IMG/VR virus record: IMGVR_UViG_3300018009_000024
Location: 1-23,581 of that record
DNA: 23,581 bases
Origin: a virus
Direction: 5' to 3' (one strand)
Made by a program: the position numbers and the translations under genes. Shown one piece after another: positions 1 through 20,269 of the stretch; position 1 is the first letter of the stretch, and each line of letters opens with the position of its first letter. The notes under the pieces were generated by a model. The model was not told where the DNA came from. It made no database searches and saw nothing but the letters and a program-made list of their open reading frames with translations.

Positions 1-1436
1 AACAGTACCTCCACGCTGTCCGCGTTCACGGTCACCTTCCGCAGCGCTGACCGCAGCAGCCGGCGCCGGCGCGGATGATCGCTTGACCCCAGGACCTTCT
101 GTATCTCCGCGCCCAGCTCCTCGGCGTTTCGCTCCACGCCGGCTCGCGCTTCGGCGGCGCGCATCTCCTGGCTGATGACGGCGAGCCGGCGCTCGGCGTC
201 CTCGCGCGTCGCGCGCTTCTTCGCCATCTCGGCCCGCAGGTCGGCGGCGTCGCCCGGGCCCCACTCTCCGTCAGCGGCCAGGGCCATGAGATTGTTCATG
301 CGCTGCTGCGCGTTCGAGGCGGAGGCCTCGGCACTCCGCTTGTCGGCCGCCAGGCGTTTGAGGTCGGCAGCGGCCGTCTTCTTCTGAGCGGCCATGGCCG
401 CGTGGAGAGATGACGGATCCGCGAGTCTCTCGGCAACCTTCTCGGCCATGAAGCGGTCAAGCTCCTGGGCATTGAAGGGCTTGCTCTTGCAGGTCCCGCC
501 GCGGCGGTTGCCGGTGCAACCGTAATAGAAGTACCGCTTGCCCATTTTGCCGCGTGCGGTCCACGTCGTCAGGTGCTTGCCGCAGATCCCGCAGAAGATC
601 AGACCGTCGAGGAGGTACTCGTAATGCTCCTTGTGCGTTCGGCGCTGGCCGCCGGCGAGCGCGGCGTTCCGCTCGAGGATCGGCTGGACTCGGTCGTAGA
701 GGCGCTGATCCACGATCGGCATGTGACTGCCGGCGAGTACTTCTCCGGCCCACTGCTGCTTACCGAGATAGATGGGGTTGCGGAGAATGCGGATCACAGT
801 CGTGTGGCTGAGCGGGCGGCCTGACTCGCGCAGGTGCCGCACCAGGTCCGTGGCGCTCTTTCCGGAAGCGTAGAGACGGAAGAGATCGCTGACGATTGCG
901 CGCGTGTCCGGGTTCGGCTCGAGGCCGCCGCCCTGCTTCTGCCGATAGCCGAAGGGAATGCGACCGCCGCAGTATCGGCCCTTCCTGGCGGCGGACTGCA
1001 TTGTCTCGCTCACACGCTCGGCGATCATCTCGCGCTCGAACTGGCCGAAGGAGGCGAGGAGGTTGCGGAGCAGCCTGCCGGCGGGAGTCGTGGTGTCAAT
1101 TTCCTGAGTGACGGCGACGACGTCCACGCCGTGCGCTTCGGCTTCCTGGACGAGCTGGCAGAAGTCGGCGACGGAACGGCTGAGGCGGTCTATTTTCAGG
1201 GCGACCAGGACGTCGAACTTCCCGGCGCGGAGGTCGGCGAGCATGCGCTGGTAGGCGGGGCGCTGCGTGTTCTTGCCGCTCAGTCCCTCGTCACGATAGA
1301 CGTCCACGACCTGCGCAGCGCGCGCTTTCGCCCATAATTGGCAGCGCTCTTCCTGTAAGTCGAGCGAGACGCCTTCTTCGGCCTGGCGCGTGGTGCTGAC
1401 ACGAAGATAGAGCGCGGCGCGGAGCGAGCGCCCCAT
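1..1436 (-). CDS. Large serine recombinase (phage integrase), 3' end cut by window edge
   Basis: Site-specific recombinase of the resolvase/invertase superfamily with the long C-terminal part of phage serine integrases; it would cut and rejoin attP and attB. About 478 residues are visible and the frame is still open at base 1. Seen: the N-terminal catalytic domain starts with YLRVST, so Ser14 is the likely nucleophile; LKIDRLSRS near residues 80-88 supplies the conserved arginines; FGQFEREMIAERV near 130-142 is the E-helix. A recombinase domain with RKGRYCGGRIPFGYR follows. A zinc ribbon (CGIC near 282-285, then CTGNRRGGTC near 307-316) precedes a coiled-coil region at about 340-440. The ATG overlaps the stop of the upstream exported-protein gene by one base (TAATG), with GAGG nine bases upstream, so it is translationally coupled in the lysogeny operon. 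Family assignment is secure; whether it integrates this phage is inferred. Confidence 0.95.
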   Translation of the reverse strand, partial: MGRSLRAALYLRVSTTRQAEEGVSLDLQEERCQLWAKARAAQVVDVYRDEGLSGKNTQRPAYQRMLADLRAGKFDVLVALKIDRLSRSVADFCQLVQEAEAHGVDVVAVTQEIDTTTPAGRLLRNLLASFGQFEREMIAERVSETMQSAARKGRYCGGRIPFGYRQKQGGGLEPNPDTRAIVSDLFRLYASGKSATDLVRHLRESGRPLSHTTVIRILRNPIYLGKQQWAGEVLAGSHMPIVDQRLYDRVQPILERNAALAGGQRRTHKEHYEYLLDGLIFCGICGKHLTTWTARGKMGKRYFYYGCTGNRRGGTCKSKPFNAQELDRFMAEKVAERLADPSSLHAAMAAQKKTAAADLKRLAADKRSAEASASNAQQRMNNLMALAADGEWGPGDAADLRAEMAKKRATREDAERRLAVISQEMRAAEARAGVERNAEELGAEIQKVLGSSDHPRRRRLLRSALRKVTVNADSVEVL

Positions 1437-2098
1437 TAGTAACCGCCTCTGGCGGGAACGCCCGTTTGCCCCGCTTGTATGAGGCCTAATTCGTTGGAAC
1501 GCCATTCCCGGTAGACCCAAGCAGCGCGCCCGGCGTTTCCGTTTTTCACTGCCTCCTCCAGAACCATCGCGTAGGTGATGTTTGTCTTTGCTATGGAAGA
1601 ATCAGGCGTTCTGCCCTTCAGCCATTCATTGAAGCCTGGCTTGGCGGCGATCTCCCGCCAGTCCGGGACCAGCTCGGTCAATCGCGCCTCGAAGGCCGCC
1701 CGCTGACGCGCGATCTCTGCTTCGCGGGCCAAGCGTTCCTTTTCTGCCTTCTGATCCGCGAGCGCTTTGTCTTCACGGGCCTTCTTCTCCTCCGGCGTGA
1801 TCCACTCATCGCCCACTTTGATAAGTCCCTTTTGCGCCTGCGCGGTCTCAAAGGCAGTCTGCTCAGCGCGCGTCCGTAAACCCAAAGCCTTCCGCGTTTC
1901 ATCCGAGAGGGAAGCCAATGGAATCCAGGCGCCTCCATCTGCACAATTCACGAGCGCCTTATCGCCCTTGACCTTCAGGACCGTGACGTTTTTGAAGGCC
2001 TGCCCGTCCGTCGTCGTGACAATATCTACCGGATCCCGCGCGAGCACGGCAACGGAGAGCGAGAACAGAAGAGCCATCGCAAGAGCGAGACGCCCCAT
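1436..2098 (-). CDS. Exported protein of unknown function in the lysogeny operon
   Basis: A 220-residue protein whose function I do not recognise. Residues 1-20 form a typical signal peptide (hydrophobic core ALAMALLFSLSVAVLA, cleavage likely after A20), so it should be exported. Residues 24-70 form a small beta-type module (DGQAFKNVTVLKVKGD, then DGGAWIPLASLSDETRKALG) of a kind I know from exported proteins of Verrucomicrobia-like bacteria. Residues 95-145 are a charged Lys/Glu/Ala-rich helix, probably coiled coil. The C-terminus (VPDWREIAAKPGFNEWL and the following helix) resembles a tail motif found in other phage proteins. The start has AGGAGG six bases upstream. The gene lies 12 bases after the repressor and overlaps the recombinase by one base, so it is probably expressed in the lysogen as a conversion gene. 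A role in surface change or superinfection exclusion would be inference. Confidence 0.85.
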   Translation of the reverse strand: MGRLALAMALLFSLSVAVLARDPVDIVTTTDGQAFKNVTVLKVKGDKALVNCADGGAWIPLASLSDETRKALGLRTRAEQTAFETAQAQKGLIKVGDEWITPEEKKAREDKALADQKAEKERLAREAEIARQRAAFEARLTELVPDWREIAAKPGFNEWLKGRTPDSSIAKTNITYAMVLEEAVKNGNAGRAAWVYREWRSNELGLIQAGQTGVPARGGY

Positions 2099-2110: not shown

Positions 2111-2680
2111 TCAAAATTTCACGCCCCAGACGCGCGTCATTCGCTGAACCTCGTCCGCCGGCACTACGTCGGCATTGTGCGACGGGTTCACCGGCTGAAG
2201 TATAACCTGTCTGCCCTTGCGATGCACGCGCTTGAATGTGCGGGTTCCGTCCGTGAGTTCCACGATGGCCAAGTCGCCGTCGCGGACGGTATCCCCCTTT
2301 TCGACCAACACGATCTGGCCGTCCCGTGCGATCGGTTCCATGGAGTCGCCGCGCACACGGAAGCCGACGAGATTGTCAGGCTTCTTCTCGTGGTATGGCG
2401 CTTCGCCATCGGCAACGATCCAATGCTGGCCGCCGCCGGCGTTGAAGACCGGGAATCTGCCCGGATCGTGAACCTGCTCTTCTTCTCCGTGCCACGATGC
2501 GAGAGAATCTCCAGATAGCTTTGCGAGTCTTTCCAGTACGGCGCGGCCTGGCTTCGCGCTCCCGTGGAGGTACTGCGAGAGCGTCTGAATCTTCCATCCC
2601 ATAGCCTCAGCGAGGCGCTTTTTGCCGCCGAAGTGAACTGCGAGCGCCGATAGCTTTTCCCGAAACGCCCCGTAATTCAA
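2111..2680 (-). CDS. CI/LexA-type phage repressor with S24 self-cleavage domain
   Basis: 189-residue transcriptional repressor. Residues 10-58 form an XRE-type helix-turn-helix (KRLAEAMGWKIQTLSQYLHG, then RLAKLSGDSLASW). Residues 75-189 are a LexA/UmuD-like S24 peptidase domain with Ser113 in GDSMEPI and Lys150 in TRTFKRV as the catalytic dyad. The Ala81-Gly82 bond in VFNAGGG is the probable cleavage site, so RecA-stimulated autocleavage on DNA damage is expected from the family. The start is TTG at 2680: GGAG (2692-2689) lies eight bases upstream. The ATG at 2694 is out of frame and stops after five codons. A TTG start would keep the protein level low. The operator-like palindromes lie directly upstream of the ribosome binding site, which suggests autoregulation. 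It is the first gene of the minus-strand operon. Confidence 0.93.
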   Translation of the reverse strand: MNYGAFREKLSALAVHFGGKKRLAEAMGWKIQTLSQYLHGSAKPGRAVLERLAKLSGDSLASWHGEEEQVHDPGRFPVFNAGGGQHWIVADGEAPYHEKKPDNLVGFRVRGDSMEPIARDGQIVLVEKGDTVRDGDLAIVELTDGTRTFKRVHRKGRQVILQPVNPSHNADVVPADEVQRMTRVWGVKF

Positions 2681-8038: not shown

Positions 8039-8458
8039 GTGCACTATAGAAATGGGCGCGAAGTGAGAAACGGCGACACGGTTGTCAGTCTTGGCTATGA
8101 CGGCGGGAAAATCGTGGCAGTCGGAATCCTTCACAACGCGACGACTGGCAATGACTACTGCAATGGCAGCATCGCGCCGATCAGCACCGGCGTCGCGGTC
8201 GCGAGCGTGTGCGATTGCCTGCACATGGACGATGTGGCCGAGATGCTGAAGGAAAAAGGTCTCGACAAGCGACCGAGCGGAAAAGAGAATTCGCGTGACG
8301 ACAACCTACGACTTCGCGGACGAGCGTGCCGGTCTGGAATACCTCCACAATGTCCGGTCGCGCGGCTTGGCAATTCCCCTCGAGGAGCTTCTGCGGGCCG
8401 GGGCGTGGGAGTTCTCGTCGTCAAGCGACCAGGGCGACAAGGCGACGACGCGGTATGA
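8039..8458 (+). CDS. Small phage protein with out-of-frame overlapping tail
   Basis: 139-codon frame starting at GTG with GGAGG five bases upstream. Residues 1-83 look like a real small protein (MHYRNGREVRNGDTVV, then VGILHNATTGNDYCNGSIAPI and DCLHMDDVAEMLKEKGL), a beta-rich type seen in phage genomes with no known role. From about residue 86 the product becomes Arg/Gly/Pro-rich low complexity. There the DNA is shared with the gene at 8295-8474 in another frame. Either the overlap is genuine and the tail is passive, or a frameshift removed the original stop. No membrane segment or catalytic motif is visible. Confidence 0.65.
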   Translation: MHYRNGREVRNGDTVVSLGYDGGKIVAVGILHNATTGNDYCNGSIAPISTGVAVASVCDCLHMDDVAEMLKEKGLDKRPSGKENSRDDNLRLRGRACRSGIPPQCPVARLGNSPRGASAGRGVGVLVVKRPGRQGDDAV

Positions 8459-8474
8459 GATCGTGAAGAAGTAA
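8295..8474 (+). CDS. Small phage protein overlapping the previous gene
   Basis: 59-residue protein starting at GTG (TTTYDFADERAGLEYLHNV), with a good amphipathic helix (AGLEYLHNVRSRGLAIPLEELLRAGAW) and a natural ending (TTRYEIVKK). Its composition is that of a normal folded protein, unlike the other frame of the same DNA. A GGAAAAGAG stretch precedes the start. It overlaps the end of the 8039 frame by 164 bases. Family and role unknown. Confidence 0.6.
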   Translation: MTTTYDFADERAGLEYLHNVRSRGLAIPLEELLRAGAWEFSSSSDQGDKATTRYEIVKK

Positions 8475-8520
8475 ACGCTCCGGCGCGTGCCGGACGGGTT
8501 TCTTTGGAAAGGAGGCGTGT

Positions 8521-9009
8521 ATGGCGAAGGCGAAGAAGCCGGCGAAGAAAGCGCCGGGCGGTCCGCCGAAGCTGGCGGCCGAGATCAAGGTGGAGGCCCG
8601 CGATTTCACGCATGCGGCCGCGAGCCTCGGATGCAAGTGCGCCCTGCTCAAGGGCTGCACGAAGGCAATCCTCAAGCGCATCGAGAAGGTGAAGGAGGTT
8701 CTCGATGCGAACATCGCCAAGGGCGGACTGGAGTCTCCGCGCGCCGGCATGCTGTTCGGGACCCTGGAGCAGTCGCGCCAGGAATCCCAGAAGGCGGAAC
8801 TCGAGCGGATTGACACGGCGGTCAGCCTCGCTAACTTCGTGCTCGAGAGCGTCGGCGCGGCGGACCTGAAGGCGTTCCGCGCGGGCTGCCGCAAGGTCTC
8901 CGAGGGCGTTGTGAAGAAGGCGGATGGCCGCGAGCCGGCGAAGGCGGCTGAGCCGGATGGCAAGAGCCAGGCGGCCGGCGACAGCCAGAGAGCGCAGGCG
9001 GCAGGATAG
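8521..9009 (+). CDS. Phage protein of unknown function with Lys-rich start
   Basis: 162 residues, no family recognised. The first 20 residues are Lys/Ala/Pro-rich (AKAKKPAKKAPGGPPK), like a nucleic-acid-binding tail. Residues 25-130 are mainly helical with three cysteines in LGCKCALLKGCTKAI (38, 40, 46), and residues 130-162 are a disordered Ala/Gly/Gln tail. A consensus AGGAGG lies upstream of the ATG. Its TAG stop is seven bases before the tmRNA 5' end, and no promoter is visible in its GC-rich 3' part, so the tmRNA is probably made from the same transcript. Confidence 0.75.
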   Translation: MAKAKKPAKKAPGGPPKLAAEIKVEARDFTHAAASLGCKCALLKGCTKAILKRIEKVKEVLDANIAKGGLESPRAGMLFGTLEQSRQESQKAELERIDTAVSLANFVLESVGAADLKAFRAGCRKVSEGVVKKADGREPAKAAEPDGKSQAAGDSQRAQAAG

Positions 9010-9014
9010 TGAGC

Positions 9015-9881
9015 ATGGGCCTGAAAGGATTCGACGGAGTGAATGAGGTCGGATGCTGCGCGCCGGGGACGGCCGCTCGGCCCCGTCAACAATGCGGCCA
9101 CAAGACTAAGTGCTGCCGAATATCGGCAAGCGGCCTAAACGGTCGCCCTGAACCCGGCGAGGAAGCCCGCGTAGCCGGCAGTAGGGACCAGACGCAGGCG
9201 ACGGCCCGGAGAGACGGGCTGGCTTGCCGGTTGAAAGCTGCTCCGAAGGAATTCCGGCTGGCCGGGCGTCGTGGCCAGCCACGCGCAAAAGGGCTGAAAT
9301 CCCCTGGAGCGAAACCGGCTGGTGGAGGCAAGGCTTGCCCGACGAGCCTCAATCATCGGGACACGCGCGTAGACGCACCGGCTGAAGCACGACCGGACGG
9401 GAGTTCGATTCTCCCCAGGTCCACTCATCTTAGCATCCTGGCCTTTGACCTGGCCTCTGTCTGCGGATGGGCCTCTCTCAAGGAAGGCCGTCTCAGTTCG
9501 GGCGCCTGGGAGAATCCGGCGCGGTACGTGGACTCTCCCGGGCGCTTCTTTACCTGTTTCAGGACGTGGCTCGCGGACATGAAGCAGTGGCACGAACCGC
9601 AGCTCGTGGCCTACGAGTTCACCCCGCGCGGCGCGAGCACGAATGCGATGCTGATCCATTTCGGGCTTGTGACCAGGCTGGAGGAGTGGGCGTACCGAAT
9701 GGAGGCGCGCACGGCGTTCATCTATCCGAGCCAACTGAAGAAGCTGGTGACCGGACGCGGCGACGCGGAGAAGGAAGAGGTGCGCGATGTCATGCGGAAG
9801 CGATGGAAGATTCCGAAGCTGACGAGCCTGGACGAGAGTGACGCGGTTGCGGTCTTGACCTGGGCGCTGAGGAAAGCATGA
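9015..9881 (+). CDS. RuvC-like Holliday junction resolvase; start lies across the tmRNA
   Basis: The conserved protein begins at about 9420: STHLSILAFDLASVCGWA with the first catalytic Asp (codon 9447), VAYEFTPRGAS with the Glu, and DESDAVAVLTWAL with the C-terminal Asp. This is the RNase H-fold core of phage RuvC-like crossover junction endonucleases, about 154 residues. No ATG, GTG or TTG is in frame between 9420 and the catalytic core. The frame is open leftward through the whole tmRNA to ATG 9015, which has AGGA eight bases upstream. The given span is this open frame; residues 2-135 would be translated tmRNA and are unlikely to be a functional domain. An ATT at 9408, preceded by GGAG in the T-stem, is an alternative start. 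The end overlaps the next ATG (ATGA). Resolvase function is well supported; the start is not. Confidence 0.8.
   Translation: MGLKGFDGVNEVGCCAPGTAARPRQQCGHKTKCCRISASGLNGRPEPGEEARVAGSRDQTQATARRDGLACRLKAAPKEFRLAGRRGQPRAKGLKSPGAKPAGGGKACPTSLNHRDTRVDAPAEARPDGSSILPRSTHLSILAFDLASVCGWASLKEGRLSSGAWENPARYVDSPGRFFTCFRTWLADMKQWHEPQLVAYEFTPRGASTNAMLIHFGLVTRLEEWAYRMEARTAFIYPSQLKKLVTGRGDAEKEEVRDVMRKRWKIPKLTSLDESDAVAVLTWALRKA
9017..9423 (+). ncRNA. ssrA: tmRNA (transfer-messenger RNA), phage-borne, one-piece
   Basis: A complete tmRNA that rescues stalled ribosomes by acting as alanyl-tRNA and then as a short message. The acceptor stem GGGCCTG (9017-9023) pairs with CAGGTCC (9416-9422) over seven bases; the third pair is G-U, the alanyl-tRNA synthetase identity element. 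The discriminator A is at 9423. The nearly invariant GGATTCGACGG is at 9027-9037. The T-arm is GGGAG-TTCGATT-CTCCC (9399-9415). Helix 2 forms from GGTCG (9047-9051) with CGACC (9390-9394) and continues as TGC/GCA across a two-base bulge. A tag reading frame ends at TAA 9136-9138 inside a stem-loop (GCGGCC-TAAAC-GGTCGC). GC-rich repeats in 9190-9345 fit the pseudoknot domain. CCA is not encoded (CTC follows). No own promoter or terminator is seen. Length is about 407, slightly above the usual 350-400. Confidence 0.95.
9085..9138 (+). other. tmRNA tag-peptide reading frame
   Basis: The message part of the tmRNA. Read from AAC 9088 it gives NNAATRLSAAEYRQAA followed by TAA; one codon earlier (GTC) would add Val. 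The ending QAA resembles the small hydrophobic ends (LAA, VAA) that proteases recognise in ssrA tags. The resume codon is uncertain, placed by analogy with the AGTC-resume context in other tmRNAs. The frame differs from that of the RuvC-like gene downstream. Confidence 0.7.
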
Positions 9882-10777
9882 ACTCGAACGGCCGAAGGCT
9901 GCCGTGCGCGTTTCCGTACATCGGCGGGAAGTGGAGGCTGGCGCCAAGGATCATCGCCCTGATGCCGCCGCATGAAGTCTACGTGGAAGTGTTCGGCGGG
10001 TCCGGCGCGGTGCTTTTCGCCAAGGAGCGCTCGAAGGTCGAGGTCCTCAACGACTGCGATGGCGAGATCGTGAACTTCTTCCGCGTCCTGCAGGATCCGG
10101 GCAAGACTGACCGGTTGATGCAGCGGCTCTTTGTGACGCCCTATTCCCGGAAGGTCTATGCGGAGATGTGCGAGCGGCCGCTGCCGAAGGACGATGTGCT
10201 GCGCGCCTGGGTGTTGTGGGCGCGTGCGCGGATGTGCTTTGGCGGATACCGGCCGGCGGAGAACGGGTTTCGTTTCGCGGGCAACACGCGCGGTCGCTGG
10301 CGCCGATCGCTCGGCTCGCGGCACCAGGGCGGCGGCGATGCGGCGACGCTCCACAACAAGATTGACGAGCTGGACCGGTTCACAGAACGCCTGCGCGGCG
10401 TCTACATCGAGGACAAGGATTTCCCCTACATCCTCGACTGGTGGGATTCGCCCAGGACGGTCTTCTACCTCGATCCGCCGTACTTCGGGACCGAAGGGTA
10501 CTACGACGGCGGGATGTTTCCGGAGTGGCGGCATTACGAACTGGCGGATCACCTGGCGCGCATCAAGGGCAAGGCCGTCGTCAGCTACTACCCGCACCCG
10601 AAGCTGGCGGAGCTGTACCCGGAAGACCGCTGGCATCGCGCGACCTTCCGCGTGCGGAAGAACCAGCAGAAGACGGTTCCCGGCACGGAGGCGAAGTACG
10701 AGACGGAGATGCTGCTGATGAACTACGAACCGACGGACGGGGCCCGGGCCCCGGTTGAGAAAGGCGCAGGCACATGA
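9878..10777 (+). CDS. Dam-type DNA N6-adenine methyltransferase (D12 class)
   Basis: 299 residues of the D12 class. PYIGGKWRLAPRI (13-25) is the family start motif. VEVFGGSGAVLF (36-47) is the S-adenosylmethionine-binding motif. The catalytic motif is DPPY at 199-202 (in FYLDPPYFG). The enzyme methylates adenine N6 in a short site, possibly GATC as in Dam, but specificity cannot be read from sequence. The region between (FGGYRPAENGFRFAGNTRGRW) fits the target recognition domain. It overlaps the resolvase stop by four bases and the cytosine methylase start by four. In a phage it probably protects DNA from host restriction or times replication and packaging. Confidence 0.93.
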   Translation: MNSNGRRLPCAFPYIGGKWRLAPRIIALMPPHEVYVEVFGGSGAVLFAKERSKVEVLNDCDGEIVNFFRVLQDPGKTDRLMQRLFVTPYSRKVYAEMCERPLPKDDVLRAWVLWARARMCFGGYRPAENGFRFAGNTRGRWRRSLGSRHQGGGDAATLHNKIDELDRFTERLRGVYIEDKDFPYILDWWDSPRTVFYLDPPYFGTEGYYDGGMFPEWRHYELADHLARIKGKAVVSYYPHPKLAELYPEDRWHRATFRVRKNQQKTVPGTEAKYETEMLLMNYEPTDGARAPVEKGAGT

Positions 10778-14332: not shown

Positions 14333-14637
14333 CCGCGAAGCCGTGGCGGATGAAGCGTTTTTCCTCGCGCGAGATTCTCCAGGGGATCGAGTATGCCAAG
14401 TCCGGCGGTCAGGCCCTGCACGTCTGGAAGGGCTGCTGGCCGAATCCGAAACCTCGCTGCTTCAAGGACGGCGAGCCGTGGGGACATCTGCTTGATCAGG
14501 ATGCCGGCCGTTTGCTTCTCACGGCCCTTCATCTCGGCGTCAAGATGGTCAAGATATCCAATCCCGGAAAGCAGACGCAGCACGTTGACCTCTGCGGCAG
14601 GCCGCTGGAACGGGCGATGAAGGAGTGCAAACCATGA
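14329..14637 (+). CDS. Small phage protein, possibly DUF4031-like
   Basis: 102 residues. The part GEPWGHLLDQDAGRLLLTALHLGVKMVKISNPGKQTQHVDLCGRPLERAMK resembles the DUF4031 layout (H-L...D..EL...A..LG...F....HYDL) only loosely. The front contains WKGCWPNPKPRCFKDGE. No catalytic motif can be named. ATG 14329 overlaps the ASCH stop as ATGA, which I prefer over an in-frame start at 14290 inside the ASCH gene. Its stop overlaps the following ATG in the same way. Confidence 0.7.
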   Translation: MTAKPWRMKRFSSREILQGIEYAKSGGQALHVWKGCWPNPKPRCFKDGEPWGHLLDQDAGRLLLTALHLGVKMVKISNPGKQTQHVDLCGRPLERAMKECKP

Positions 14638-14993
14638 CCGAACCGAACATTGATCCTCGCGCTGCGGTACTGGAATACCTGACGCGCTGGAAGCATCTCG
14701 GCCCGCACACTAAAGGCGACATCGCCCAGGTGACCGGCCTCTCGACGCGCGAGGTCGAGGAGGCGATCCACGAGCTGCGCCACTCCGGCGAGCCGATTGT
14801 CGCGGGCGATAAAGGCTACCTCTGGACTGAAGACCCGCTAAAGCTCGATGAGTGTTTGGCCGCTCTGAAGCATCGCGCGGGGGAGATTCACGGGACGATT
14901 TCCGATCTTGAGGCGACCCGCGACCGGCTGCTGCGGAGTCGGGCGATTGAGCCGGGCGGACAGGCGCGGCTTTTTGCGGAGGCGAAGGCGTGA
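14634..14993 (+). CDS. Winged-helix-like small protein
   Basis: 119 residues. Residues 10-65 look like a winged helix-turn-helix (VLEYLTRWKHLGPHTKGDIA, then LSTREVEEAIHELRHSGEPIVAGDKGYLW with the wing). Residues 75-105 form a charged helix (LAALKHRAGEIHGTISDLEATRDRLLRS). Similar small proteins occur in phage early regions, and DNA binding is a reasonable guess. AAGGAG precedes ATG 14634, which overlaps the previous stop as ATGA. The end overlaps the radical SAM GTG start as GTGA. Confidence 0.75.
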   Translation: MTEPNIDPRAAVLEYLTRWKHLGPHTKGDIAQVTGLSTREVEEAIHELRHSGEPIVAGDKGYLWTEDPLKLDECLAALKHRAGEIHGTISDLEATRDRLLRSRAIEPGGQARLFAEAKA

Positions 14994-15838
14994 GGATCGC
15001 CCGCGTTTTTCCGCGATGGACGACAGCCACGCCGACCGACGATCTGGCCTTCGTCGGGTATCCCGACCTCTACACGCCGGACGTGGACCGCGTTTACATC
15101 AGCGTCGCGTTCACCTGGGATATGGAGGAGGCGGAAAAGCTGGCGTCGGCTTGGGAGAAGCGCGCGCCGGTAACGCTCGGCGGTCCGGCGCTCGGCCGGC
15201 GGTCCGAGGGATTTACGCCGGGGCAGTTCATCAAGCGCGGGTACACGATCACTTCGCGCGGCTGCCCCAACCGCTGCTGGTTCTGCGAGGCGTGGAAGCG
15301 CGAAGGGCCGGTCCGCGAACTGCCGATCATGGACGGATTCAACGTGCTGGACGACAACCTGCTCGCGTGCTCCCGGCGGCACATCGAGGACGTCTTTGCG
15401 ATGCTCGGCCGGCAGAAGCAACGCGCACGGCTGACCGGCGGGTTGGAGGCGCGACGGCTCGAGGACTGGCACGTCGAGCTGCTTGCGCGGCGGATGCCGG
15501 ATGTCGCGTTCCTGGCCTATGACACTGCGGACGACTGGGAGCCCCTTGTCGAGGCCGCTCGGAAGTTGAGGGCTGCCGGTTTGATTTCGGGCAAGCACCG
15601 CATTCGTGCCTACGTGCTCTGCGGTTGGCCGAAGAACGAGCGTTGCGGGAGATCGGCGGACACGATTCGCGCGGCGGACGAGCGCTGCCGGCGTGTCGCG
15701 CGGCTGGGGATCATGCCGGCGGCGATGCTATACGACAACGGCGTCCATGTGGATAAGAGTGACTGGCACGACTGGCGGTTCGCCTGGTCGGACCCGGCGG
15801 CGTGCGGGAAGCGCATGAAAGAGGAGGGGAAGGCATGA
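14990..15838 (+). CDS. Radical SAM family protein
   Basis: 282 residues. The [4Fe-4S] cluster motif is CPNRCWFC (Cys92, Cys96, Cys99), the CX3CX2C signature of radical SAM enzymes. The N-terminal 70 residues (VDRVYISVAFTWDMEEAEKLASAWEKRAPVTLGGPA) look like a shortened cobalamin-binding-type Rossmann domain, as in B12-dependent radical SAM proteins. FNVLDDNLLACSRRHIEDV follows the cluster, as usual in the barrel. The protein is short for the superfamily, so the barrel is partial or compact. The reaction is unknown. The start is GTG, overlapping the previous stop, with GGAGG upstream. It overlaps the DUF5131 gene by four bases; the pairing of two cysteine-motif proteins suggests a shared pathway such as base or tRNA modification. 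Confidence 0.85.
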   Translation: MRIARVFPRWTTATPTDDLAFVGYPDLYTPDVDRVYISVAFTWDMEEAEKLASAWEKRAPVTLGGPALGRRSEGFTPGQFIKRGYTITSRGCPNRCWFCEAWKREGPVRELPIMDGFNVLDDNLLACSRRHIEDVFAMLGRQKQRARLTGGLEARRLEDWHVELLARRMPDVAFLAYDTADDWEPLVEAARKLRAAGLISGKHRIRAYVLCGWPKNERCGRSADTIRAADERCRRVARLGIMPAAMLYDNGVHVDKSDWHDWRFAWSDPAACGKRMKEEGKA

Positions 15839-16599
15839 GCGGCAAGACAAAGATCGAATGGACTGAGGCGGCTTGGAATCCCATCACCGGCTGCTCTCCG
15901 GTCAGCGAGGGCTGCGAACATTGCTACGCGCAGCGGATGGCGCAGCGCCTCGCCGGCAGGTACGGCTACCCGAAAGCATATCCCTTCGCAGTGACGGTCC
16001 ACGACGACCGCATGGTAGAACCACTAAGTTGGAAAAAGCCTCGCCGGATATTCGTGTGCTCAATGGCCGACCTGATGCACGACAACGTCCCGGACATGGC
16101 CATACGCGACGTAATCGGTACGATCAAGGCGGCACCGCAGCACACGTTCCAGATCCTCACCAAGCGCCCGCGACGGCTGGAGGAGTGGGTGTGGCCGTCA
16201 AACGTCTGGCTCGGTGTGACCGCGGAGAATCAGCAGAGGGCTGACGAGCGCATACCGATACTGCTCACGCATCAGCATGCGTCGGTCCTCTTTGTTTCTA
16301 TCGAGCCGATGCTCGGGCCGATCACGCTGAAGCGCTACATCGGCGATCCGATGCCGCGGCCTTGGCCGGTCCTCGTTCACGCAGATGGTGGGACGCCTCC
16401 GCGCGGTCTGGACTGGGTAATCTGCGGCGCAGAGACCGGCCCCGGCGCGCGCCCGATGCACAACGTATGGGCGGACGATCTCTACAGGCAATGCAAAAAG
16501 GCCAGCGTCCCCTTTTTCTTCAAGAAGCAAACAGAGGGGCTTGGCGTTCTGGAGAAGGTGCTGGCGTGCCGAGAGATTCCTGGCGTGGAGTCGCAGTGA
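15835..16599 (+). CDS. Phage Gp37/Gp68 family protein (DUF5131)
   Basis: 254 residues with the family start KIEWTEAAWNPITGCSPVSEGCEHCYAQRMAQRL. Cys20, Cys27 and Cys30 (CX6CX2C) form the three-cysteine motif, thought to bind an iron-sulfur cluster in a radical SAM-like fold. Further family marks are RRIFVCSMADLMHD, FQILTKRPRRL, NVWLGVTAENQ, LFVSIEPMLGPI, WVICGAETGPGARPM, and FFFKK near the end. The family is common in phages and mobile elements; its reaction is not established as far as I know. ATG 15835 overlaps the radical SAM stop as ATGA. The nearest downstream gene is 94 bases away, the largest gap in this part of the operon. Confidence 0.92.
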   Translation: MSGKTKIEWTEAAWNPITGCSPVSEGCEHCYAQRMAQRLAGRYGYPKAYPFAVTVHDDRMVEPLSWKKPRRIFVCSMADLMHDNVPDMAIRDVIGTIKAAPQHTFQILTKRPRRLEEWVWPSNVWLGVTAENQQRADERIPILLTHQHASVLFVSIEPMLGPITLKRYIGDPMPRPWPVLVHADGGTPPRGLDWVICGAETGPGARPMHNVWADDLYRQCKKASVPFFFKKQTEGLGVLEKVLACREIPGVESQ

Positions 16600-17503: not shown

Positions 17504-18114
17504 GGCGACGCTGCAAAAAGCGACAATCTGTAGGTACTCCTGGGCGAGACTTCGGGCTTGAAGGTGTGCGTGGGCGGCGGCAAGATTCACAGACTTTGTT
17601 TGCCACAAAACGGTCGCTGAACGTACAGAAAATCGCGGCGCTCCTGGTGAATGGAAAAACGTCGTCAGCGATCATGTCGTGGGCCGTCAGTGACCGCGGC
17701 CTCGGTCTGTCGGAAGCGCAGGCCGGTCGTCTCATGCGTCAGGCGAAGAAACAGATTTCGCGCGACTCAAAATGGAGCCAGGAGGAAGAGCTCGGTCTGG
17801 CAGTCAGTCGTCTCCGCATGCTCTACGCGAAGGCGTTGTCAGCCGGTGACACCGCTGGCGCTTTTTCGATTCAGCGAGAGCTGAATTCACTGACGGGTCT
17901 TCGCGGGCGCGATGGCGATGGCAGCGACGGAAAACCGCCGCCCCACGACGATGGCGCAAGCCGAGAGTTGGCCGCGGCTCGAGCGCATCTTGCCGCCCTG
18001 AACCTCGGAGGCCCGGACGTTCCGGTGAGTGAGTTGGCGCGGTTGGCCGTCCAACGGATCGTGGAGTTGATGACCAGTGCGAATGAAGAAGGCAAGAAGT
18101 CCGGCAAACTATGA
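17500..18114 (+). CDS. Probable terminase small subunit
   Basis: 204 residues. Assignment is mainly from position directly before the large terminase and from a helical DNA-binding-like domain at about 40-85 (NVQKIAALLVNGKTSSAIMSWAV, then GLSEAQAGRLMRQAKKQI), followed by helices at 90-135 (LAVSRLRMLYAKALSAGDTAGAFSIQRELNSLTGL) suited to oligomerisation. A Gly/Asp/Pro-rich linker and a last helix (VSELARLAVQRIVELMTS) complete it. Small subunits recognise the packaging site and form rings on the DNA. ATG 17500 overlaps the replication gene stop; the end overlaps the large subunit start by 32 bases. Confidence 0.65.
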   Translation: MRRRCKKRQSVGTPGRDFGLEGVRGRRQDSQTLFATKRSLNVQKIAALLVNGKTSSAIMSWAVSDRGLGLSEAQAGRLMRQAKKQISRDSKWSQEEELGLAVSRLRMLYAKALSAGDTAGAFSIQRELNSLTGLRGRDGDGSDGKPPPHDDGASRELAAARAHLAALNLGGPDVPVSELARLAVQRIVELMTSANEEGKKSGKL

Positions 18115-20269
18115 GCGTCACAGGGCGGACGCCCGGGCGCGCATGGCCGCCAAGTCGGAGGCGGGCCGCGATATCGGCGAGATGCCGGCGGTCGTAAATC
18201 CGATGCGCAAAGCGCGCTGCGGCGCTTTGCTCCAGGCGTTCATCGAGAGCTACCTCCTGAAGATGTTCACGGTCCGCGGAGACCACTGGCCCTGGTCGGC
18301 AACACACCTGGAGGTCATGCGTCGCATCGAGGCCGTCGTGCGCTACGGCGATATGTTCGGCGTGGCCATGCCGCGCGGCGGCGGCAAGACCTCTCTCATC
18401 AAGGCGGGAACGTTGTGGGCGAGCCTCTTCGGCTTCAGGCGATGGGTCTGCGTTCTCGCCGCCACGGCGCCGAAGTCGGGGGCGATCATTCAGGATTTGC
18501 AGACCATCGTGGAAACCAATCCACTGCTCGCGGCGGATTTCCCGGAGGTCTGTTATCCCGTTCGCAAGCTGGAACGCATCGCTGGCCGGCAGCGCGGGCA
18601 GACATTCAGGCGGGAGCCGACGCGCATGGCCTGGAGCGTGAATGAAATCGTCCTCCCGAACATTCCCGGAAGCCGGTGCGCCGGCAGCATGGTCACGGCG
18701 ACCGGCCTCGAGGGTTCCGGCATCCGCGGCCAGGTGCGCGTGCTGGCCGATGGCACGCAGCTCCGGCCCGACCTGGTGTTCATAGACGATCCGCAGACGG
18801 ACGAGAGCGCGCATTCGGCGTTTCAGACCGACGATCGGCTGAAGTTGCTGGGCGGCGCGGTCCTCGAAATGGGGCCGCCTGGCGTCCCGCTCGCCGCTCT
18901 GATGGCCGTGACGGTGATCGAGAACGGCGATGTCGGCGATACGGTCCTGAAGGACCCGCGATGGAACGGAATCCGTTCGCCGATGCTCGTCAAGTTTCCC
19001 GTCCACATGAGCGCGACGCCCGCCGACATTCCTCACGCGGACCACTGGGACCGCTATGCCGACCTGCTGCGAAGCGGGCGAACTGATGACGCGACGGAGT
19101 TCTATGCGGCGCATCGGTGCCTTCCGGAGTGCGAGGGGATCCTCGACCGGCCGCGCCCTTGCCTGCCCTGCCCGATTCGCGCCGACTGCATGGACGCGGA
19201 CGCCATGGTCTCCTGGCAGCAGCGGAAATATCCCGCCGACCTTTCGCCGGTTCAGCACGCCATGGACCGGCACATTCGCAACCCGATCCTCTTCGCCGCC
19301 GAGATGCAGCAACAGCCGATCTCGGCACAAATGGCCGGCGCAAGGATCACGCCGGCGCAGGTGATCCAGCGGGTCAGCGGCCTTCCGATGTGCCACGTGC
19401 CTGCGGATGCGACGGTCATCACCGCCGGAGTCGACGTCCACGACGAGCTTCTCTACTGGGTCGTGTGCGCCTGGGAAGACGACTTCACCGGCCAGGTCAT
19501 TCAGTACGGCACGCTCCCCGAGCAGCCGGTGCGCTGGTTCCTGCAGGCCAGTCCGCCACGCCCGCTCTCGCGCGAGTTCCCCGGCCAGGACAAGGACGGC
19601 GTGATTCAGTCCGGCCTCGAGCGCCTGTGCGGCGTCATGCTCAAGCATGAGTTCGAGAAACACGCCGGCGGATCCGTGGCTTCGATGTCCATCGAGCAGA
19701 TGCTCGTGGACAGCGGCTACAAACCGACGCTCGTCTACAACGTGCGCCGGAAGCTCGCCAGCCCGATCATGCAGGCCTCGAAGGGCATGGCCCTGCGCGC
19801 AACGAACAAGCCGATCGCCTCCTTCCAGCGTAAGCGCGGATGGAAGTTCGGCGACGACTGGTACGTCCCCAGCGTCCGCGGCACGCGCGAGTACCCGCAC
19901 GTGTGCATTGACACCAACGCCTGGAAGAGCTTCGTCCATCGCGCATTGTCCGTCGCTCCGGGCACGCGCGGCGCCTTGACGCTCTACGGGACGCCGGTGA
20001 CTGCCGGCGACCATGAAGCGTTCGCGGAACAGGTCGCCGCCTCCGAGTACTTCACCGAGGTCTTCGCTCACGGCCGGGTCGTCAACGAGTACAAGCAGAT
20101 GCCGCATCGGCCCGACAACCACTGGTGGGACTGCCTGGTCCTGTGCGCGGTCGGCGCCTCGATGCGCGGCTGCAAGCCGCCGGTCCAGGCGAAAGCGGCT
20201 CAGCGGTCATCCGGCGGTCCGGCGAAGCGCCAGGTGAAGAGCCTTGCAGAAATGGCAGGAGCAACATGA
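18083..20269 (+). CDS. Terminase large subunit (GpA-like)
   Basis: 728 residues. ATPase: Walker A-like MPRGGGKTSLIK (96-107) and Walker B LVFIDDPQTDE (231-241). Nuclease: VITAGVDVHDE (Asp451) opens the RNase H-like domain, DSGYKP carries a second acidic residue, and RPDNHWWDC near the end carries the last, as in the GpA family. ILFAAEMQQQP before the nuclease is typical of large terminases. The enzyme cuts concatemers and pumps DNA into the prohead through the portal. An insertion near 346-370 has five cysteines (CLPEC, then CLPCPIRADC), a possible zinc site between the two domains. ATG 18083 and GTG 18077 are both possible starts; neither has a strong ribosome binding site, so coupling to the small subunit gene is likely. 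The stop overlaps the next ATG. Confidence 0.93.
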   Translation: MKKARSPANYERHRADARARMAAKSEAGRDIGEMPAVVNPMRKARCGALLQAFIESYLLKMFTVRGDHWPWSATHLEVMRRIEAVVRYGDMFGVAMPRGGGKTSLIKAGTLWASLFGFRRWVCVLAATAPKSGAIIQDLQTIVETNPLLAADFPEVCYPVRKLERIAGRQRGQTFRREPTRMAWSVNEIVLPNIPGSRCAGSMVTATGLEGSGIRGQVRVLADGTQLRPDLVFIDDPQTDESAHSAFQTDDRLKLLGGAVLEMGPPGVPLAALMAVTVIENGDVGDTVLKDPRWNGIRSPMLVKFPVHMSATPADIPHADHWDRYADLLRSGRTDDATEFYAAHRCLPECEGILDRPRPCLPCPIRADCMDADAMVSWQQRKYPADLSPVQHAMDRHIRNPILFAAEMQQQPISAQMAGARITPAQVIQRVSGLPMCHVPADATVITAGVDVHDELLYWVVCAWEDDFTGQVIQYGTLPEQPVRWFLQASPPRPLSREFPGQDKDGVIQSGLERLCGVMLKHEFEKHAGGSVASMSIEQMLVDSGYKPTLVYNVRRKLASPIMQASKGMALRATNKPIASFQRKRGWKFGDDWYVPSVRGTREYPHVCIDTNAWKSFVHRALSVAPGTRGALTLYGTPVTAGDHEAFAEQVAASEYFTEVFAHGRVVNEYKQMPHRPDNHWWDCLVLCAVGASMRGCKPPVQAKAAQRSSGGPAKRQVKSLAEMAGAT

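Follow-up and report, generated by a model that had tools for sequence, protein, structure and literature searches.

The locus described here raises the question of how a temperate phage came to carry a tmRNA (ssrA) gene in its early operon, and what this RNA may do for the virus. The window, i.e. the whole stretch of DNA analysed, is the IMG/VR virus record IMGVR_UViG_3300018009_000024 (23,581 bp). A preliminary description of this DNA had placed a complete tmRNA gene at positions 9017–9423 and had suggested the Rfam model RF00023 and ARAGORN as a check. Positions 9017–9426 (plus strand) match RF00023 over model positions 1–374, with 66.8 bits (E = 2.7e-24; gathering score 47), and this is the sole RNA family match in the window. 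ARAGORN also called a single RNA gene: a one-piece tmRNA with its 3′ end at 9424 and the tag AAEYRQAA. Its start at 8862 was discarded, because it lies inside a coding gene and both the Rfam match and the acceptor pairing point to 9017; for the called interval (8862–9424) the 5′ end is thus set 155 nt off, so automated annotation of the phage tmRNA could be wrong. The Rfam check therefore gave a significant one-piece match, while ARAGORN found the gene and a tag but misplaced the start.

The ends of the gene can be read from the acceptor stem. Its 5′ strand, GGGCCUG (9017–9023), pairs at all seven positions with CAGGUCC (9416–9422), including the G3-U pair, as had been described from the letters alone. 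With A9423 as the discriminator base and no encoded CCA, the end coordinate 9423 is exact. Positions 9017–9423 (plus strand) are thus a complete one-piece tmRNA gene, with the acceptor stem, T-arm and helix 2 all present and with the very coordinates first proposed. The G + C content by codon position in this segment (0.69/0.64/0.63, versus about 0.65/0.47/0.85 in the neighbouring genes) lacks a coding composition, as expected of an RNA gene. A simple scan of positions 8400–9900 found neither a sigma-70-like promoter nor a terminator at the gene itself, in agreement with the view that the tmRNA has no obvious signals of its own.

The phage context of the gene is directly observed. At the left end of the window, and running to it, lies a large serine integrase gene (3–1520, minus strand; Pfam Resolvase, Recombinase and Zn_ribbon_recom); large serine recombinases use short cores near int. 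It is followed by a CI-like repressor gene with an S24 peptidase domain (2111–2680, minus strand). Between these two, a gene for a secreted protein (1436–2098, minus strand) is a possible lysogenic conversion gene. After the repressor come genes for a DUF2130 protein, an exonuclease VIII-like nuclease, a Gp3-like recombination directionality factor and unknown proteins, the last of them (8521–9009, plus strand) having no Pfam or PHROG match and a coding composition, and then the tmRNA. Downstream are a RuvC-like resolvase (body at 9432–9881, plus strand; phrog_159, E = 1.9e-14; Pfam RuvC), a D12-type adenine methylase, a C5 cytosine methylase, a HerA-like ATPase, a radical SAM protein, a DUF5131 protein, a GpA-like terminase large subunit (18077–20269, plus strand) and a lambda-type portal. 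The radical SAM and DUF5131 genes overlap (14990–16599). Phage genes, and not flanking host DNA, thus lie on both sides of the tmRNA, and the combination of integrase, repressor, Gp3-like factor, portal and terminase identifies a temperate tailed phage, so that the earlier assignment of the gene to a temperate, lambda-like phage and its early operon holds. From about position 14348 on, the same genes recur at 100% protein identity in a second contig (L002), which goes on to capsid genes and does not extend to the tmRNA; the tmRNA is covered by one contig only. ARAGORN found no tRNA genes in the window. A phage-encoded SmpB was considered and rejected, since no such gene is present in this record or in L002.

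The host was approached through the terminase and the tmRNA itself. Relatives of the terminase (counted at E ≤ 1e-60; identity up to 46%) occur in 48 of 392 Planctomycetota genomes versus 1 of 61 genomes in the phylum of an NPL-UPA2 MAG. The nearest among the tmRNAs fetched is a planctomycete chromosomal ssrA (locus L134, genome G327), with identities of 82% (3′ end) and 73% (5′ end). This gene and another from the same small planctomycete order (L136, genome G210) have the acceptor GGGCCCG/CGGGUCC and so share GGGCCYG with the phage tmRNA, while most sampled planctomycetes have GGGGGCG. The phage host is therefore probably a member of the Planctomycetota, and a planctomycete as both host and tmRNA donor is the best reading of these sequence comparisons. 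This accords with the earlier suggestion of a host group other than mycobacteria. The L134 gene (region 100–700, minus strand) lies between REP-like palindromes, with GAGTCGAAGT before and ACTTCGACTC after it, as if inside a repeat pair.

The two planctomycete genes resemble the phage tmRNA in being one-piece, in having GGGCCYG with G3-U and a near-identical T-arm, and in the order of pseudoknot 1 (PK1), tag and helix 5. They are shorter (about 365 nt versus about 410 nt). In the phage molecule the T-arm region (GGACGGGAGUUCGAUUCUCCCC, 9395–9416) is identical to that of L134 and its stem is fully paired (5/5). PK1 (9064–9099) consists of H3, CGGGG/CCCCG (9064–9068/9081–9085, 5/5 pairs), and H4, GGCCGC/GCGGCC (9071–9076/9094–9099, 6/6 pairs). 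Helix 5 (9130–9146), GCGGCC-UAAAC-GGUCGC, is formed by 9130–9135 and 9141–9146. The two-strand fold of both ends that represents helix 2 has −51.8 kcal/mol and a layout similar to that of L134, and stems compatible with PK2 (CCGGC/GCCGG and AGCCCG/CGGGCT) are present.

When the acceptor, H3, H4 and T stem were compared with L134, all 23 pairs were found to be kept, with four two-sided compensatory changes (acceptor pair 6 and three pairs of PK1) and none broken; as the compared helices were picked by eye, these 23 pairs are support and not a statistical test. The pattern suggests that the phage tmRNA evolved under selection for structure. The compensatory changes may have taken place either after the move to the phage or earlier, in an unsampled donor. 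The z-score of the fold of the tRNA-like domain plus helix 2 is modest (−1.9), which is attributable to the high G + C content, and the structural argument therefore rests on the covariance model and the compensatory changes. The covariance score is itself low, at 66.8 bits versus 117–198 bits for full-length planctomycete host genes (159–164 bits for L134 and L136), chiefly owing to a divergent and longer central part.

The tag frame lies at 9112–9138 (GCU GCC GAA UAU CGG CAA GCG GCC UAA). Its resume codon GCU is separated from PK1 by a 12-nt linker (ACAAGACUAAGU), and the stop codon UAA (9136–9138), whose presence had been noticed at the outset, sits in the loop of helix 5. In E. coli tmRNA the resume codon follows about 11–12 nt after PK1, and the phage layout (PK1, 12-nt linker, GCU, helix 5) is that of E. 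coli. The tag is thus eight codons long, AAEYRQAA, and not the 16-residue peptide NNAATRLSAAEYRQAA of the preliminary description. That candidate was discarded because its frame begins inside PK1: the AAC AAT GCG GCC... part, with the residues NNAATRLS, falls within the PK1 loop and 3′ strand and in the following linker.

The claim that the tag could be told apart from host tags is supported by a comparison with sampled planctomycetes. The residue before the final AA is L, M, F or Y in 32 of 32 planctomycete tmRNA tags (ANNNYALAA or ANHEMALAA in L134 and L136) versus Q in the phage tag, which has the frame, stop and terminal AA but Gln instead of a hydrophobic residue before them. E. coli ClpX prefers LAA, and by analogy the host ClpX protease probably recognises the QAA ending less well than one in L/M-A-A. 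With such a weaker degron, the release of ribosomes may be more important than the removal of the tagged product.

The second question is how the gene came to lie where it does. The preliminary description had given an unknown gene and a resolvase gene as the neighbours of the tmRNA; these are right, but the RNA actually separates a probable GTG start from the resolvase body. The upstream gene stops with TAG (9007–9009), the final G of which opens GTG AGC AT, and nucleotide 1 of the tmRNA comes directly next. The AGCAT at 9012–9016, abutting the tmRNA, recurs as a direct repeat at 9432–9436 (both plus strand), 420 bp away and 8 nt (CTCATCTT) after the discriminator base, so that the repeat is present at both ends of the segment. 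To the right of CTCATCTT, AGC ATC CTG GCC TTT GAC is the start of the RuvC fold. In silico removal of the 420 bp predicts GTGAGCATCCTGGCC, joined, as the empty site; it restores a TAGTG overlap and the reading GTG AGC ATC CTG GCC TTT (V-S-ILAFDLAS) from a probable ancestral ruvC start, GTG at 9009–9011 (plus strand), which overlaps the upstream TAG.

Homologs have a standard start 2–23 codons before the matching Ile (M-S-ILTLDL in phage WO, MTK-ILALDL in L119, and a shared GTG 23 codons before the Ile in planctomycete homologs), and the reconstructed V-S-ILAFDL matches that of phage WO. In the present phage a codon scan of the ruvC frame found no ATG, GTG or TTG between the tmRNA and the Ile of the first motif. 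Further upstream, the frame has TTG 9231 and GTG 9039 within the RNA and, at its 5′ edge, GTG 9009 and ATG 9015. Either, then, the usual start of ruvC is gone, or the gene is translated from an unusual one (ATT 9408, ATC 9435 or CTG 9438). Insertion of the tmRNA segment into the start of ruvC is therefore likely; it falls short of proven, because a few percent of junctions would have a 5-bp repeat nearby by chance (a rough estimate) and no close relative with an empty site was found.

Taken together, we regard it as probable that a temperate Planctomycetota phage acquired a host-type ssrA, at the start of ruvC in its early operon, and that this gene serves ribosome rescue. Its transcript is probably the operon mRNA, from which RNase P would free the 5′ end at nucleotide 1 (9017); the 3′ end would be trimmed by other host nucleases, and CCA then added. 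Going by the G3-U pair, the tmRNA would be charged with alanine. Together with host SmpB, EF-Tu and ribosomes it may then, in infected or induced cells, free ribosomes stalled on broken mRNAs and append (A)AAEYRQAA. Such ribosomes might come from host mRNA decay or from truncated phage mRNAs, with rescue taking place during the lytic phase. RuvC itself may be produced at a low level, may begin at a non-standard start, or may be read through the tmRNA as a fusion. Rescue with host SmpB, processing, charging and a benefit to the phage are all what we infer from the sequence.

Among the other explanations, the strongest is that the tmRNA is non-functional or decaying, a fragment of host ssrA captured by accident and damaging ruvC. 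It is consistent with the low covariance score, which makes loss of function possible, with the presence of the tmRNA in no relative examined, with a position that should harm ruvC and with a tag C-terminus unlike every host tag seen. Even so we consider it unlikely, since no checked pair of the acceptor, PK1 or T stem has been lost, although the sequence has diverged widely and some pairs have changed on both sides, and all functional parts are in order; these changes could, on the other hand, predate the capture if the donor was an unsampled host.

It is also conceivable, if improbable, that the phage tmRNA acts as a decoy or modulator, competing with the host tmRNA for SmpB and alanine, or that a poorly degraded tag protects phage or repressor proteins. 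The Q before AA fits such a role, and phage DS6A has a tag-free tRNA-like domain reported to inhibit tmRNA (PMC4131195). The tag frame, stop codon and PK1, needless for a pure decoy, are kept here.

We would give slightly less credit to a dual use of the 420-bp unit as an in-frame insertion, in which an uncut transcript would yield an extended RuvC (ORF 9009–9881), a cut one would yield tmRNA and leave RuvC off, and the tmRNA would be a mobile unit marked by the 5-bp repeat. The ruvC frame is indeed open through the entire tmRNA (140 codons), as in 4% of dinucleotide shuffles and in 1 of 93 frames of host tmRNAs (31 loci, three of them apparently read on the wrong strand). Read as protein, however, the region has a flat G + C content by codon position and a negative codon score. 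An N-terminal extension encoded by the tmRNA frame was rejected for this non-coding composition, and the frame is probably open by chance. If the dual-use reading were true, processing would switch between DNA repair and ribosome rescue.

Two further readings are very improbable. Although ssrA is a common integration target (PMC3029335; PMC3146451), an attachment-site copy of the host gene was rejected, because the gene is complete and lies well inside the early operon, 7.5 kb from the integrase, and because the integrase is a large serine recombinase. An assembly chimera of a phage contig with host ssrA would agree with the coverage by a single contig and is hardly credible, given bounds that coincide with the exact RNA 5′ end and a 5-bp repeat, flanks that lie in one operon, a ruvC frame that is kept and a tmRNA very divergent from those of sampled hosts.

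The search for relatives with the same arrangement covered several groups. Fifteen virus records related through the terminase and five related through HerA or a methylase yielded no tmRNA, and ARAGORN detected none in 21 planctomycete loci that lie upstream of terminase relatives; many of these records and loci are fragments, and they have little of the early region in common with the window. HerA-like relatives exist (L117–L120) and have no tmRNA, and IMG/VR searches starting from RuvC, the Gp3-like protein and the Dam methylase revealed no syntenic locus. A T-arm pattern search gave no close relative among the matches listed, and a first tmRNA pattern scan used a spacing absent from the window itself and therefore sampled other tmRNAs only. 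On the relatives examined, the phage tmRNA looks lineage-specific.

There are many other phage tmRNAs in IMG/VR. Two 88-nt tmRNA matches (68.4 bits; L068, 10069–10156, and L082, 4831–4918) lie in tRNA arrays of virus contigs and are tRNA-like domains without a tag region, similar to that of DS6A. A third, in a 156-kb virus contig (L076, 4300–4858; 57 bits), lies beside or overlaps a group I intron match (94 bits) and is possibly intron-split. Three phage tmRNAs (L035, L039 and L050) have long tags, AKNNSTFADIFTFGKPVGMKSVAPVFALA and a variant, of about 29 residues.

Phage tmRNAs as such are already known, and they are not confined to some large mycobacteriophages, the carriers named in the preliminary description. 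An earlier list names Bxz1-type mycobacteriophages, Wildcat and Bacillus phage G, with DS6A having the tRNA-like domain only (PMC4131195), and a 2021 survey counted 402 of 18,146 phage genomes (about 2.3%) with a tmRNA (PMC9004378). The tmRNAs of Bxz1-type phages, phage G (PMC4131195) and, by annotation, the Gordonia phages Orchid and Kampe are likewise genes in phage genomes; those genomes are larger (80–160 kb in the Gordonia annotation), whereas the window has no tRNA gene and its tmRNA lies at a ruvC start. The prophage prophiT49-2 of M. abscessus is also a temperate phage with a tmRNA and a serine integrase; it is an 80-kb prophage with 24 tRNAs, and the accessible account of it reports no disrupted gene start (PMC9934374). 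Phages of Bradyrhizobium elkanii have a tmRNA without tRNA genes, but are virulent isolates from an alphaproteobacterial host (PMC12656738). The methylophage Melnitz has an ssrA of bacterial origin in an operon, which differs in being two-piece permuted and in having a glutamine riboswitch (PMC9004378). Huge phages are reported to carry both tmRNA and SmpB (PMC7162821). In the accessible parts of the literature, no earlier report of a tmRNA at a ruvC start, or of a QAA tag, was found, and these two points are what is unusual here.

Phages can depend on the tmRNA system, as is shown by lambda-imm-P22, which requires tmRNA in E. coli (cited in PMC12656738). The present gene adds a probable Planctomycetota phage to the carriers of tmRNA, without the tRNA arrays that frequently accompany it. 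If the insertion at the ruvC start is real, it would be a clear case of a phage gaining ssrA and of the cost to a neighbouring gene, and would, with one short tag, make the question of the role of phage tmRNAs testable.
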